From: Ignavibacteria bacterium
GTDB taxonomy: Bacteria > Bacteroidota > Ignavibacteria > Ignavibacteriales > Melioribacteraceae
DNA: 57,227 nucleotides
NCBI GenBank assembly: GCA_009773205.1
Contig: WPAE01000005.1
Span: 1-57,227 of the forward strand
Direction: 5' to 3'
Shown piece by piece: positions 7,778 through 57,122 of this stretch. Numbering within the stretch: position 1 is the first letter of the stretch; each line of letters opens with the position of its first letter. The translations under genes were made by a program, and so were the position numbers. The notes below the pieces were generated by a model. The model saw only the letters and a program-made list of their open reading frames with translations, ran no database searches and was not told where the DNA came from.

Positions 7778-7896
7778 GGTCATCTCTAAAAATTGTCATT
7801 CTGAACGACCAGCCTCGCCGGCTAGGCGGGAGTGAAGAATCGCAGCTTTGTCTATTTGAAAGAAAACGAAGATTCTTCGGGTTTTTAGAGATACCC
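7778..7896. mobile_element. MITE-like element with terminal inverted repeats and TTTA duplication
   Basis: 119 bp. Left end GGTCATCTCTAAAAA and right end TTTTTAGAGATACCC are inverted repeats, flanked on both sides by TTTA (7774-7777 and 7897-7900), a probable 4-bp target-site duplication. Inside are a TGTCATTCTGA start, a GC-rich near-palindrome (CCTCGCCGGCTAGG) and the pair GAAGAATC/GATTCTTC, which resembles the TGTCATTC palindromic repeat family. It has no coding capacity, so movement would need a transposase encoded elsewhere. Confidence 0.65.
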
Positions 7897-14853: not shown

Positions 14854-16221
14854 ATGAAAAGGATTATTTTTTTAATTACAATATTCGTTTTTTCAGCAAC
14901 AATTTTTGCACAATGGACTCAACTTTCGAGTATTACTGATATTGGTATTGTGAATTCTATCGATGGATGTCAACCAAATTTTTATTTAATTGCAGCAAAT
15001 TCTCCAAATGCTGAAAATCGATTATTAATTTCTAAAGATGGTGGATTAAGCTTTACAAGGTTTACTAATTGGAGCGCTGATTATGGCAATCCAAGTGATG
15101 TTACAGTTATTGATTCACTTCGTTTTTGGATTGCTAGCGGTACCAAAATTGTTTCTACAAGTGATGGTGGAAAATCTTGGCAAATTCAATTTGAAGATAA
15201 ATCTTTAGTCGAGTTTTTTAATTACATAGAAATGTTTAACCTAACTGATGGCGTTGCAATGGGTGATGCTGTTTCATCTTCAAGTTTAACTCCAATTCTT
15301 AAAACTACAAATGGGGGCAAGAACTGGACCCAAGTAAATACAAATTTATATGGAGCTTATTCTGCCGATTTATGGAGGAGAATTGATTTTGTAAATATGA
15401 ATACAGGTTACTTTTACTCTAGTTATCCAAGGGGGTCAAACCCTCCCAACCCGAATGGTCCTATGTTAAAAACTACAGACGGTGGAAAAACATGGAGTTC
15501 TTTACCAAATACTTTTCAAGGAGGCTATGTTTTAAAATTTTTTAATGAAAGCATTGGTGTTGCTTATGCAAATAATATTACTTCATCTTCGAATGGAGTT
15601 TTTGTTACAAAAGACGGAGGAAAAACTTGGCTATATTTTTATGGTATAACCGGTGGTTGGGGTATTGCTTTTGATTTTGTTCCTAAAGATGCCTCTAAAA
15701 TTTGGTTTTCAGATATGAACAATTTGTTTTTTAGTGCTGATACAGGTAAAACTTGGCAAAAATCGATAAGTTCAGGTAGAATTAGAGATATTAAATTTAT
15801 TTCCCATAATAAAGGTTTAGTACAAGCTGATCTTGGAACCCGATTTGTTACAACTAACGGTGGTGGTTTATATACTTCAACAAAAAACCAAATGGATATT
15901 CCTACAAATTTTTACTTGGAACAGAATTACCCAAATCCGTTTAATCCTAAGACAACAATACAATATGTCATTCCGAGCGGAGCAAAGGAATCTTTCGGGA
16001 TTGCTTCGTCGCAAACTCCTCGGGATGACAATTATGTAACTTTGAAAGTGTTTGATGTGCTTGGGAGAGAAGTTGCAACACTAGTAAATGAGGAAAAGTC
16101 GGTTGGTGAACACACAGTTCAATTTAATGGTTCCCATCTTGCCTCAGGAATGTATCTATACCAAATCAATATTGGCCATGGACGATTTATTCAAAACAAG
16201 AAGATGATGTTGGTCAAATAA
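14854..16221 (+). CDS. T9SS-secreted BNR/Ycf48-like beta-propeller protein
   Basis: 455 aa. It has a Sec signal peptide (MKRIIFLITIFVFSATIFAQ). At least five BNR-type repeats follow (TSDGGKSW, TTNGGKNW, TTDGGKTW, TKDGGKTW, SADTGKTW), giving a sialidase/Ycf48-like propeller over about 30-340. Residues 352-455 are a type IX secretion sorting domain (EQNYPNPFNPKT, FDVLGREVATLVNEE, LASGMYLYQI, KKMMLVK), so the protein should cross the outer membrane and be released or anchored. Between QYVIP and VTLKV the sorting domain holds an extra segment of about 20 residues (SGAKESFGIASSQTPRDDN) encoded by an inserted palindromic repeat. The reading frame is kept. The surface function is unknown. AAAGGA serves as the ribosome site. 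Confidence 0.85.
   Translation: MKRIIFLITIFVFSATIFAQWTQLSSITDIGIVNSIDGCQPNFYLIAANSPNAENRLLISKDGGLSFTRFTNWSADYGNPSDVTVIDSLRFWIASGTKIVSTSDGGKSWQIQFEDKSLVEFFNYIEMFNLTDGVAMGDAVSSSSLTPILKTTNGGKNWTQVNTNLYGAYSADLWRRIDFVNMNTGYFYSSYPRGSNPPNPNGPMLKTTDGGKTWSSLPNTFQGGYVLKFFNESIGVAYANNITSSSNGVFVTKDGGKTWLYFYGITGGWGIAFDFVPKDASKIWFSDMNNLFFSADTGKTWQKSISSGRIRDIKFISHNKGLVQADLGTRFVTTNGGGLYTSTKNQMDIPTNFYLEQNYPNPFNPKTTIQYVIPSGAKESFGIASSQTPRDDNYVTLKVFDVLGREVATLVNEEKSVGEHTVQFNGSHLASGMYLYQINIGHGRFIQNKKMMLVK
15966..16030. repeat. Palindromic TGTCATTCCGAG repeat inside the T9SS sorting domain
   Basis: TGTCATTCCGAG at the left and CTCGGGATGACA at the right form an inverted repeat, 11 of 12 bases matching, around a 41-nt centre. 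On translation it gives the IPSGAKES...TPRDDN peptide, which interrupts an otherwise standard sorting domain without breaking the frame. Related ends (TGTCATTCTGA) occur at 7795 and 57021. Confidence 0.7.
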
Positions 16222-17862: not shown

Positions 17863-18249
17863 ATGACAAAACAAGAATTGCTTAATAGAACAAAAGGTTT
17901 TGCTATTCAAATCATTCATTTTGTGAATGAGATTCCGAAGAATTCTACAAACAACGTGTTAGGCAATCAACTTTTGCGTGCCGCAACATCTATTGGTGCA
18001 AATTACAGAGCGGCTTGCCGTGCTAAATCGAAAGCTGATTTTATATACAAAATTAAAATTGTTGAGGAAGAAGCTGACGAGTGTATCTATTGGTTGGAGT
18101 TATTAGAAGAAACAACTCAATATCCAAGAATTTCAGTTTTGATGAAAGAAGCAAACGAGTTAACGGCCATTTTTACACAAATAGGCAAGACTTCCAAAGA
18201 TTCTATAGAAGCAAATCGTAAATCCAAAATCGTAAATCGAAAATCGTAA
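17863..18249 (+). CDS. Four-helix-bundle protein (23S rRNA intervening-sequence protein family)
   Basis: 128 aa. The sequence matches the IVP/four-helix-bundle family: LLNRTKGFAIQIIHFVNEIP near the start, NNVLGNQLLRAATSIGANYRAA in the middle, then KADFIYKIKIVEEEADECIYWLELL. Family members are common near repeats and inside 23S rRNA intervening sequences; their role is unresolved. The C-terminal 12 residues (ANRKSKIVNRKS) are encoded by the adjoining 14-bp tandem array and replace whatever the native end was. It interrupts the spacing between proC and the rimP operon and is bounded by inverted repeats, so lateral movement is plausible. Confidence 0.85.
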   Translation: MTKQELLNRTKGFAIQIIHFVNEIPKNSTNNVLGNQLLRAATSIGANYRAACRAKSKADFIYKIKIVEEEADECIYWLELLEETTQYPRISVLMKEANELTAIFTQIGKTSKDSIEANRKSKIVNRKS

Positions 18250-18351
18250 ATCGAAAATCGTAAATCCAAAATCGTAAATCGAAAATCGTAAATCGAAAAT
18301 CGTAAATCGAAAATCGTAAATCGAAAATCGTAAATCCAAAATCGTAAATCC
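18215..18351. repeat. 14-bp tandem repeat array, ten units
   Basis: Ten head-to-tail copies of ATCGTAAATCSAAA (S = C or G) start every 14 bp from 18215 to 18341. Position 11 reads C, G, G, C, G, G, G, G, C, C through the array. Each unit is itself two near-copies of the 7-mer AAATCGN. The first units are inside the IVP gene 3' end. On the other strand it gives long false open frames with DLRFTIYDF-like peptides. Confidence 0.95.
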
Positions 18352-18356
18352 ATTTG

Positions 18357-18388
18357 TTTGCTTATTCCGTCTAATATTCCTAATTTTG
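18357..18388 (+). promoter_or_regulatory. Promoter of the rimP-nusA-infB operon
   Basis: TTTG (18357-18360), 20 nt, TAATTTTG (18381-18388): a perfect match to TTTG-N19/20-TAnnTTTG. It lies immediately after the tandem array and 53 nt before the rimP ATG, so the expected start of transcription is near 18393. Confidence 0.7.
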
Positions 18389-18398
18389 CCCGTCCAAT

Positions 18399-18421
18399 TC
18401 GCCCCGTAGAGGGCGATTTTT
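18399..18421 (+). promoter_or_regulatory. Stem-loop with T run in the rimP-nusA leader
   Basis: A 6-bp GC-rich stem (TCGCCC / GGGCGA, loop CGTAGA) is followed directly by TTTTT. By form it is a small intrinsic terminator. It may end transcripts coming from proC and the IVP gene. It begins only a few bases after the predicted operon start, which is short for attenuation, so it may instead be a 5' stabilising or regulatory hairpin. Confidence 0.5.
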
Positions 18422-18441
18422 ATTTGTAGAATATCGAAAAA

Positions 18442-18873
18442 ATGCAACTAACTCAAAAATTCGAAGAAATTGTTTCATCACTCGGTTATCTTCTTATAGA
18501 AGTTATAATTCGAGGCGATCGTAACCTCAAAGTTATTGAGCTTTATATTGATAACGAGAAAGGAATTACTACGGATGATTGCTCTCTTGTTAGCCGTGCG
18601 GTAAACGAAGCCATAGAGACAGAGAATTTTATAGATTCAAACTTTCGGTTAGATGTTTCATCTCCAGGAATAGAAAGACCGCTTAAGTTTTTGGTTCAGT
18701 TTCAAAAACATATTAATAGAAAGTTTGAGATAATACAAAAAGATGAAGAACGAAAATTGACTGCTAAGCTTTTACGCATCGAAGGTGAGAGCCTTTTCTT
18801 TGCAGATAAAGGCGGCGAAACTAAAATAGAATATAAAAACATTACTCAAGCAAAAGTTTTAATTAGTTTATGA
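18442..18873 (+). CDS. rimP: Ribosome maturation factor RimP
   Basis: 143 aa. RimP helps assemble the 30S subunit. The N-terminal domain has LIEVIIRGDRNLKVIELYID followed by GITTDDCSLVSRAVNEAI, and the signature LDVSSPGIERPL is near 69-80. The C-terminal SH3-like domain is short. It is the first gene of the conserved rimP-nusA-infB cluster, 11 nt before nusA, with a perfect promoter match upstream. Confidence 0.95.
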   Translation: MQLTQKFEEIVSSLGYLLIEVIIRGDRNLKVIELYIDNEKGITTDDCSLVSRAVNEAIETENFIDSNFRLDVSSPGIERPLKFLVQFQKHINRKFEIIQKDEERKLTAKLLRIEGESLFFADKGGETKIEYKNITQAKVLISL

Positions 18874-57020: not shown

Positions 57021-57122
57021 TGTCATTCTGAAACTATATATATATAGAATCTGAAAACTTCGTTATTGATAGATTTTGATATTCTTCTCCATCACACTTC
57101 AGTATGGTGGAGAAGAATGACA
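57021..57122. repeat. Palindromic TGTCATTC repeat with internal hairpin
   Basis: TGTCATTC at 57021 is repeated inverted as GAATGACA ending at 57122. Inside is a long stem: ATTCTTCTCCATCA (57081-57094) against TGGTGGAGAAGAAT (to 57118), 13 of 14 paired. There is also an alternating TATATATATATA run near 57035. This is the only structure in the region from 56899 to the window end; I see no gene in that 329-nt stretch. Confidence 0.65.

Follow-up and report, generated by a model that had tools for sequence, protein, structure and literature searches.

In-frame palindromic repeats in loops of T9SS sorting domains from genomes of the Ignavibacteria group

Palindromic repeats of several families lie in frame in loops of T9SS C-terminal sorting domains (CTDs) in many genomes of the Ignavibacteria group. 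We consider it probable that such repeats are tolerated in CTD loops and are then partly copied among CTD paralogues. The unit from which this reading is developed lies in the window, that is, the whole stretch of 57,227 nucleotides of Ignavibacteria bacterium DNA that was analysed. It is an imperfect palindrome of 65 bp at positions 15966..16030 of the plus strand, where it occupies the s2-s3 loop of a CTD and keeps the reading frame.

The palindromic unit and its host protein

The host gene (14854..16221, plus strand) encodes a BNR/Ycf48-like repeat protein of 455 amino acids that matches PF14870, PF15902, PF02012, and PF18962 and begins with a stretch that, judged by eye, is signal-like. 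Its C terminus scored over the curated cut-off for the T9SS sorting domain with both PF18962 (residues 359-449, 41.4 bits versus a cut-off of 27) and TIGR04183 (28.6 bits versus 23), and the PF18962 match on the genome placed the CTD at positions 15928..16200 of the plus strand. The AlphaFold model of the CTD (31 sequences; pLDDT of 83 and pTM of 0.75) predicted an Ig-like β-sandwich, confident from residue 51 on, with six strands of at least three residues (19-26, 47-53, 59-67, 71-78, 85-93, and 98-106), while insert residues 35-42 were modeled with pLDDT under 50. A direct search of solved structures with the CTD sequence returned no match, and therefore folds were compared instead. PorU, mirolase, and PorZ were among the structural matches, as was a chain of 75 residues from 8glk, a NucA-bound T9SS entry (all at Z of 7.6 to 8.6); many unrelated Ig-like folds had similar or higher Z, and no RgpB CTD chain was present among the matches listed. 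In the RgpB CTD, D696 of the s3-s4 loop is described as bonded to G699 and R700 (PMC4804311). The VFD-V-L-G-R motif of the CTDs analysed here has the same spacing, and the strands were therefore named after that description. The domain shares with the T9SS type A sorting domain (PF18962, TIGR04183; RgpB CTD, PMC4804311) the sequence family, the predicted Ig-like sandwich, and the Asp-x-x-Gly-Arg motif in the s3-s4 loop. It differs in that the connecting loops of the RgpB CTD are described as short (PMC4804311), whereas the CTDs here have loops with repeat-derived inserts.

The unit is composed of 12-bp outer arms around 41 bp. The left arm (TGTCATTCCGAG, 15966..15977, plus strand) contains GTC ATT CCG, read as the VIP triad that closes strand s2, and the right arm (CTCGGGATGACA, 16019..16030, plus strand) matches the complement of the left one except at one position. 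The left half holds a further ATTCC...GGAAT pairing of 5 bp around 12 bases, followed by CT. Folded as DNA, the region 15960-16036 yielded a z of −3.1, with 2 of 200 shuffles equally good, and with RNA energies the unit reached −4.1 versus shuffles. The initial annotation had described a palindromic 65-bp repeat in frame within a T9SS domain, and this was confirmed, with the arms exactly where it had placed them and the fold beyond that of shuffled sequences. The plus-strand codons at 15967-16029 encode the peptide VIPSGAKESFGIASSQTPRDD in 21 whole codons, so the expected addition of about 20 residues with an intact frame held as far as codons are concerned; nevertheless, the spacing between NYPNPF and VFDVLG is 41 residues compared with a baseline of 25, and the net gain is therefore 16 residues. 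The right end of the unit contains a stop codon in one of its three reading frames. The unit had also been located between the IP and VTLKV blocks; however, the IP is itself encoded within the unit (GTC ATT CCG), which does not simply follow it. The bare 12-mer has seven matches in the window at up to two mismatches, with 2.75 expected, and seven were reached by 3 of 100 shuffles. Taken alone, this is weak evidence; what carries the case is the complete palindrome together with its relatives elsewhere.

Homologues argue for an insertion. A search of 58 genomes, its own included, with the body of the window protein gave 16 non-own homologues at 31-43% identity, some of them paralogues in one genome and one with an in-frame stop. 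In 15 of them the s2-s3 loop exceeded the baseline by at most seven residues, with zero extra residues in the best-scoring homologue (L004, 42% identity), and the sixteenth (L012 in genome G028) carried, in the same loop, a unit of the DNA cluster to which the window unit belongs. Because 15 of the 16 are short-looped and the remaining one bears a related unit, the window unit is very probably an insertion. A non-palindromic loop of equal length, by which the initial annotation would have recognized an ancestral segment, was not found among these 16 homologues at 31-43% identity. Five genomes of the same genus gave no match to the window protein at an E value of 1e-20.

Closer relatives were available for hosts of the unit in another genome, G017, where it is carried by unrelated proteins named by eye as an M1 peptidase, an amylase-like, an endonuclease/phosphatase, and an Omp28-like protein. 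The relative of the M1 peptidase in G126 (73% identity) has no s2-s3 insert, and that in G127 (71%) has a different, shorter palindromic insert (L293). Similarly, the amylase-like protein has a relative without insert in G128 (58%) and one with another palindrome in G006 (57%; L295). The endonuclease/phosphatase relatives in G126 (59%) and G128 (56%) have no insert, and that in G127 ends before the CTD. At an E value of 1e-25, the 16 genomes searched contained no close relative of the fourth host outside G017.

Distribution of inserts among loops and genomes

We catalogued the loops in G000, the genome of the window, and in G017; with PF18962 at an E value of 0.01, these gave 84 and 58 rows, respectively. 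An 80-position CTD profile built on 42 insert-free CTDs found 83 and 62 distinct CTDs (145 in total); the s2-s3 loop is also referred to as loop 1, and the s3-s4 and s4-s5 loops correspond to profile positions 25-46. Inserts of at least 8 amino acids, adding 8 to 23 residues, were confined to three loops, with 15 in s2-s3, 21 in s5-s6, and 9 in s6-s7, in a catalogue that starts from the CTD profile and from which CTDs broken by an insert elsewhere could escape. Genome G000 contributed 3, 18, and 9 of these in 23 CTDs, its s2-s3 count being at least 3 as one CTD with a loop-1 insert (L235) stands outside the catalogue count, and G017 contributed 12 in s2-s3 and 3 in s5-s6, in 13 CTDs. Natural variants of the s5-s6 loop measure about 5 amino acids, and the longer ones were counted. 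Among the 145 CTDs, the s3-s4 and s4-s5 loops had no insert of even 3 amino acids.

Not all of these inserts are whole palindromes. Folding below a z of −2 was seen for 10 of the 15 inserts in s2-s3, 7 of the 21 in s5-s6, and none of the 9 in s6-s7, compared with 4 of 109 controls (windows of 60 bases), and some loop inserts are thus less than a whole palindrome (14 of 21 in s5-s6 and 9 of 9 in s6-s7 lie above this value). The nine s6-s7 inserts, all from G000 (e.g., L236, L257, and L233), are 8 amino acids long and follow YRLTAG; seven of the nine have an NPSAGSGQG-type sequence in common by BLAST, which is repeated yet non-palindromic by itself.

The two insert-free loops, s3-s4 and s4-s5, are the very ones singled out in the description of the RgpB CTD, where they were speculated to matter in sorting (PMC4804311). 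The loop inserts may be regarded as an insertion scan performed by nature on the T9SS export signal, one that maps its changeable parts, with s2-s3, s5-s6, and s6-s7 as natural tagging sites. Since the insert-free loops coincide with those flagged for RgpB, the question of which CTD surface the T9SS reads becomes open to direct test.

The search of related genomes for the unit, which the initial annotation had suggested, revealed in-frame units at the same CTD place in many genomes of the Ignavibacteria group. We scanned 84,980 named genomes with a pattern that combined the right end of the element with the CTD core within 30 bases and that, by fixing this core, says nothing on the frequency of the element elsewhere. 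There were 27 matches in 26 stretches, 25 of them in-frame CTD inserts between the YxIP and VTLKVYD blocks and 2 non-coding. The 25 inserts came from 11 metagenome-assembled genomes (MAGs), with 8 in a single MAG, and the gap between element end and core was 15, 21, or 24 bases, always a multiple of three. The MAGs bear the names Ignavibacteria, Ignavibacterium, Ignavibacteriae, or Melioribacteraceae, apart from Bacteroidetes bacterium MM_PC_MetaG.mb.18 (G119), the source of three matches, which is placed in the family of the window. A profile of the insert region matched, at an E value of 1e-7, 31 of the 164 genomes of the order and 21 of its 68 genera, a few of the matches spanning the CTD core alone.

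Searched as DNA over the order, the unit had matches in 31 of 164 genomes. Of 30 fetched loci, 7 (the window unit and six others) were CTD loop-1 inserts and 23 lay elsewhere, with 8 in other open frames of at least 100 amino acids, several of them doubtful, and 15 in no such frame. As 23 of the 30 loci fall outside CTDs, the family constitutes a dispersed repeat and not a CTD-only one. A complete unit of like kind also lies in frame in a 1011-amino-acid open frame outside T9SS CTDs (L043 in G034).

The initial annotation had pointed to similar units at 7795 and 57021, and both are indeed intergenic, but they share the ends alone: the relative at 57021..57122 is a complete inverted repeat (TGTCATTCT...AGAATGACA), and that at 7794..7841 is one-armed (TGTCATTCTGAACG...GTGAAGAATC). 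Across G000, the half-unit had eight matches at up to three mismatches versus two for a reversed-pattern control, and these counts, from one pattern, left a high-copy REP unsupported. The matches represent seven loci including the window unit. One (L328/L245) lies in the s5-s6 loop of another CTD, where it is read as GHSERSRGM, one (L325) is in frame but antisense in the domain preceding a CTD, and four are outside any open frame of at least 120 amino acids. CTDs make up about 0.48% of the genome and hold two of the seven loci, giving a binomial value of 4.8e-4 that is weakened by counting the window unit, which was known beforehand. The half-unit at L325 (G000:C155:87330-87351) and another at L029 (G046) lie in frame at a similar place in the domain that precedes T9SS CTDs, after GFNVERG or GFEIQRS and before W..GFV.G, and this domain is possibly another recurrent landing place. 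The unit had no match in plasmid and phage collections at an E value of 0.01, and its Rfam match (17.8 bits versus a gathering score of 91) was taken as chance.

Several repeat families share loop 1. From all loci we assembled 249 distinct CTDs, among which inserts are overrepresented because of how the CTDs were collected. The stretch separating the aromatic residue from the following strand had at least 15 residues in 92 CTDs, assigned to an insert class, and at most 9 in 143, assigned to an insert-free class; 14 in-between CTDs were left unused. The 92 inserts fell into 23 DNA clusters, with 65 inserts in the cluster of the window unit, and several of the clusters are unrelated palindromes. 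Besides palindromes of the GTAGAGACG...CGTCTCTAC type (L203, L285, L293, and L295), the loop harbors CTGCCTACCGGCAAGGCAGGC (L125), a G-rich LLGGAGGG type (L067), FQHL...KQVRGD (L178), and PSPYQGEGQRE (L306). We take these non-unit types to be common dispersed repeats of environmental Bacteroidota. Some further inserts (e.g., L007, L127, and L186) are singletons with no recognizable repeat and resemble ordinary loop extensions. In one CTD (L176, G160:C403), a perfect 28-bp GTAGAGACGCGATTAATCGCGTCTCTAC palindrome of the GTAGAGACG...CGTCTCTAC form is nested in a GTCATTGC...GCAATGAC unit, and the same arrangement with decayed ends was found in L187 (G160:C186). The proposal that the loop is a tolerated landing place was thus strongly supported and proved more general than anticipated, as several repeat families occupy the same place in many genomes and inserts are also found in two other loops.

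Origin and spread of the inserts

We propose that a short, non-autonomous palindromic repeat, bounded by TGTCATT-type ends, gave rise to the unit by inserting in frame into the s2-s3 crossover loop. The s2-s3, s5-s6, and s6-s7 loops would be exposed turns of a small Ig-like sandwich serving export guidance alone, and insertions would survive there, presumably as neutral changes, because the loop is such a turn. The same loops would repeatedly capture different dispersed repeats, insertions out of frame or elsewhere in the CTD would presumably be lost by selection, and the insert-bearing CTDs would then multiply within a genome through copying between CTD paralogues. As a point against this reading, neither a target-site duplication nor a mobilising enzyme was pinpointed: Y1 transposases (Y1_Tnp) occurred in 13 of the 13 genomes tested regardless of whether inserts were present, and as a candidate mover they were uninformative.

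The junction at strand s2 raises the question of whether insertion is targeted. V-I-(P/A) directly after an aromatic residue was found in 42 of the 92 insert CTDs and in none of the 143 insert-free ones, with GTCATTGCG (17 cases) and GTCATTCCG (16 cases) as its commonest codons. Because of its absence from the insert-free CTDs, we dropped the assumption that V-I-P ahead of the insert is host sequence and read it as element-coded in the family of the unit. In two of the 42 (L203 and L285, both of G017), VIP precedes a different palindrome, and these cast doubt by suggesting that the triad may sometimes be host sequence. Judged from the codons, the TGTCATTCC end appears to replace the usual SIP or QLP triad and to complete strand s2. 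The VIP junction may reflect either homology-guided insertion or selection for a junction compatible with the fold. Guidance by short homology, with the TGTCATTCC end resembling the Tyr-x-Ile-Pro codons at the end of s2, would account for the 42 to 0 split, but 50 of the 92 inserts lie outside the VI(P/A) register (in 34 of the 50 the triad is SIP or TIP and the repeat begins a few residues further on), the same loop also takes repeats with unrelated ends, and two other loops are used too. We regard targeted insertion as unlikely, though worth keeping in view. A bolder reading, to which we likewise give roughly one chance in several, is that T9SS CTDs act as a domain-specific reservoir of palindromic repeats: the TGTCATTCC end, read as Y-V-I-P, would also supply the last residues of strand s2 and so spare the fold, and the element would then move between proteins as a CTD cassette. 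If true, the repeat would be a selfish one, adapted to a single protein domain.

Copying of whole domains could also, by itself, explain the recurrence, if gene conversion or domain shuffling had multiplied a CTD cassette with one old insertion of an element that is no longer mobile. In line with this, all 10 right-end copies in G017 (at most one mismatch) lie in CTDs, one of them stop-broken. Moreover, in a tree of 55 CTDs of G017, 9 of them with loop-1 inserts, the insert label needed 5 changes compared with a shuffled mean of 8.5, and none of 500 shuffles was as low; this tree, built on 60 columns with the loops omitted, resolved few forks. In G000, 3 loop-1 inserts needed 3 changes and 18 s5-s6 inserts needed 13. 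The CTD trees have too few columns for counting independent origins and were used for clustering only. Because the G017 inserts cluster, insert counts are not counts of independent events, and the recurrence within a genome is, as read from the sequences, probably due in part to copying of insert-bearing CTDs. Against the cassette as the sole source stand the different repeat families in one loop, the absence of the unit from homologues at up to 73% identity, and the small number of columns and resolved forks in the tree. We therefore find it improbable as the only origin, and it fits as a second step after insertion.

Two observations belong beside these counts. At one G017 locus (L348, G017:C64:302-316), the unit lies in a CTD and has a stop codon at its end; this is apparently a decaying copy. 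In G105, 4 of the 12 right-end copies lie in CTDs, and the other 8 belong to one longer, nearly identical repeat outside CTDs, a block with a ACTCCTCGAAATGAC end (L329, L331, L333, L335, L337, L343, L345, and L347).

Alternatively, the repeat-coded peptide might be useful, for instance by altering T9SS export, anchoring, or surface properties, and be under selection. This view could draw on the identical frame of the right end in 25 of the 25 loop-1 units of the named-genome scan and on the element encoding part of a conserved strand. However, insert length and sequence vary between families, much of the loop is predicted at very low confidence, and the frame may be uniform simply because not every frame is stop-free and hydrophilic, a stop being present in one of the three. 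We consider an adaptive loop very unlikely. Finally, a chance or ancestral loop of accidentally palindromic appearance, for which one could cite the weak enrichment of the 12-mer in the window (3 of 100 shuffles had as many) and the distance of all homologues of the window protein at hand, hardly deserves consideration, as the whole unit folds beyond shuffles and recurs in other CTDs and outside CTDs, and the loop is short in 15 of 16 homologues.

Fate of the peptide and relation to known repeats

In the characterised system, the CTD is removed by the PorU sortase after export (PMC4804311). We found a PorU match over the cut-off in G000, G017, and G105 and none in the less complete G160. Because PorU cuts off the CTD and the genome has a PorU match, the added peptide is, by analogy, probably part of a discarded export tag and not of the mature protein. 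The creation of new surface-exposed peptide, which the initial annotation had envisaged, thus appears doubtful.

In-frame palindromes are already known, but no report came to light in which a single secretion-signal domain served as their recurrent landing pad. Literature searches that combined palindromes or repeats with T9SS, Ignavibacteria, or Bacteroidetes, with the subscription literature mostly outside their reach, gave nothing on the subject by title among the papers listed, and a literature search by the letters of the repeat returned nothing related by title among the matches listed. A close parallel is offered by the Rickettsia palindromic elements (RPE), several families of which lie in frame within genes (PMC10969869; PMC3733652). 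Like them, the unit is a palindrome in frame in a gene; RPE, however, are described as being about 150 bp long and present in unrelated Rickettsia genes, whereas the unit here is 65 bp long and inserts occur repeatedly in three loops of a single secretion-signal domain from a different phylum, and the scan genomes are named Ignavibacteria and not Rickettsia.

The unit also resembles the CGTC REPs (Di Nocera et al. 2013, PMC3733652), which are palindromic with CGTC or TGTC ends: it has TGTC at both outer ends, and relatives such as L051 have CGTC. According to the same source, these REPs occur also in Chlorobi and Bacteroidetes, and some are intragenic, including dimers that encode 20-30 residues; intragenic REPs are noted in several phyla. 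However, CGTC REPs are described with stems of 8-9 bp, loops of 4-5 bases, and a CCA-like tail (PMC3733652), as opposed to 12-bp arms around 41 bp without such a tail. Since stem, loop, and tail differ, we did not file the unit under CGTC REPs despite its TGTC tag. For REPs that share about one site, section 15 of that paper names recB of two Xanthomonas species alone (PMC3733652). The RU elements of enterobacteria are likewise small mobile sequences whose open frames are fused into genes (Delihas 2007, PMC2759123), but they measure 103-168 bp and their abstract mentions no recurrent host domain. GTAG REPs associated with RAYT are characterized by a GTAG end and a linked Y1 transposase; the unit does not have a GTAG end, and Y1_Tnp was found in 13 of 13 genomes. 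MITEs combine terminal inverted repeats with a target-site duplication, and of these two features terminal repeats were seen in the unit.

With the CTD inserts, palindromes that code for protein are seen in a recurrent host domain and no longer in scattered genes alone, and the fate of repeats in coding DNA becomes traceable over many paralogues and genera. A separate repeat of short period was noticed in the window at 18117-18447, where overlapping minus-strand frames are built of repeated FTILDLRFSIYDFRF units. It lies at and after the end of the ORF at 17863-18249 and seems to supply the last residues of this ORF.
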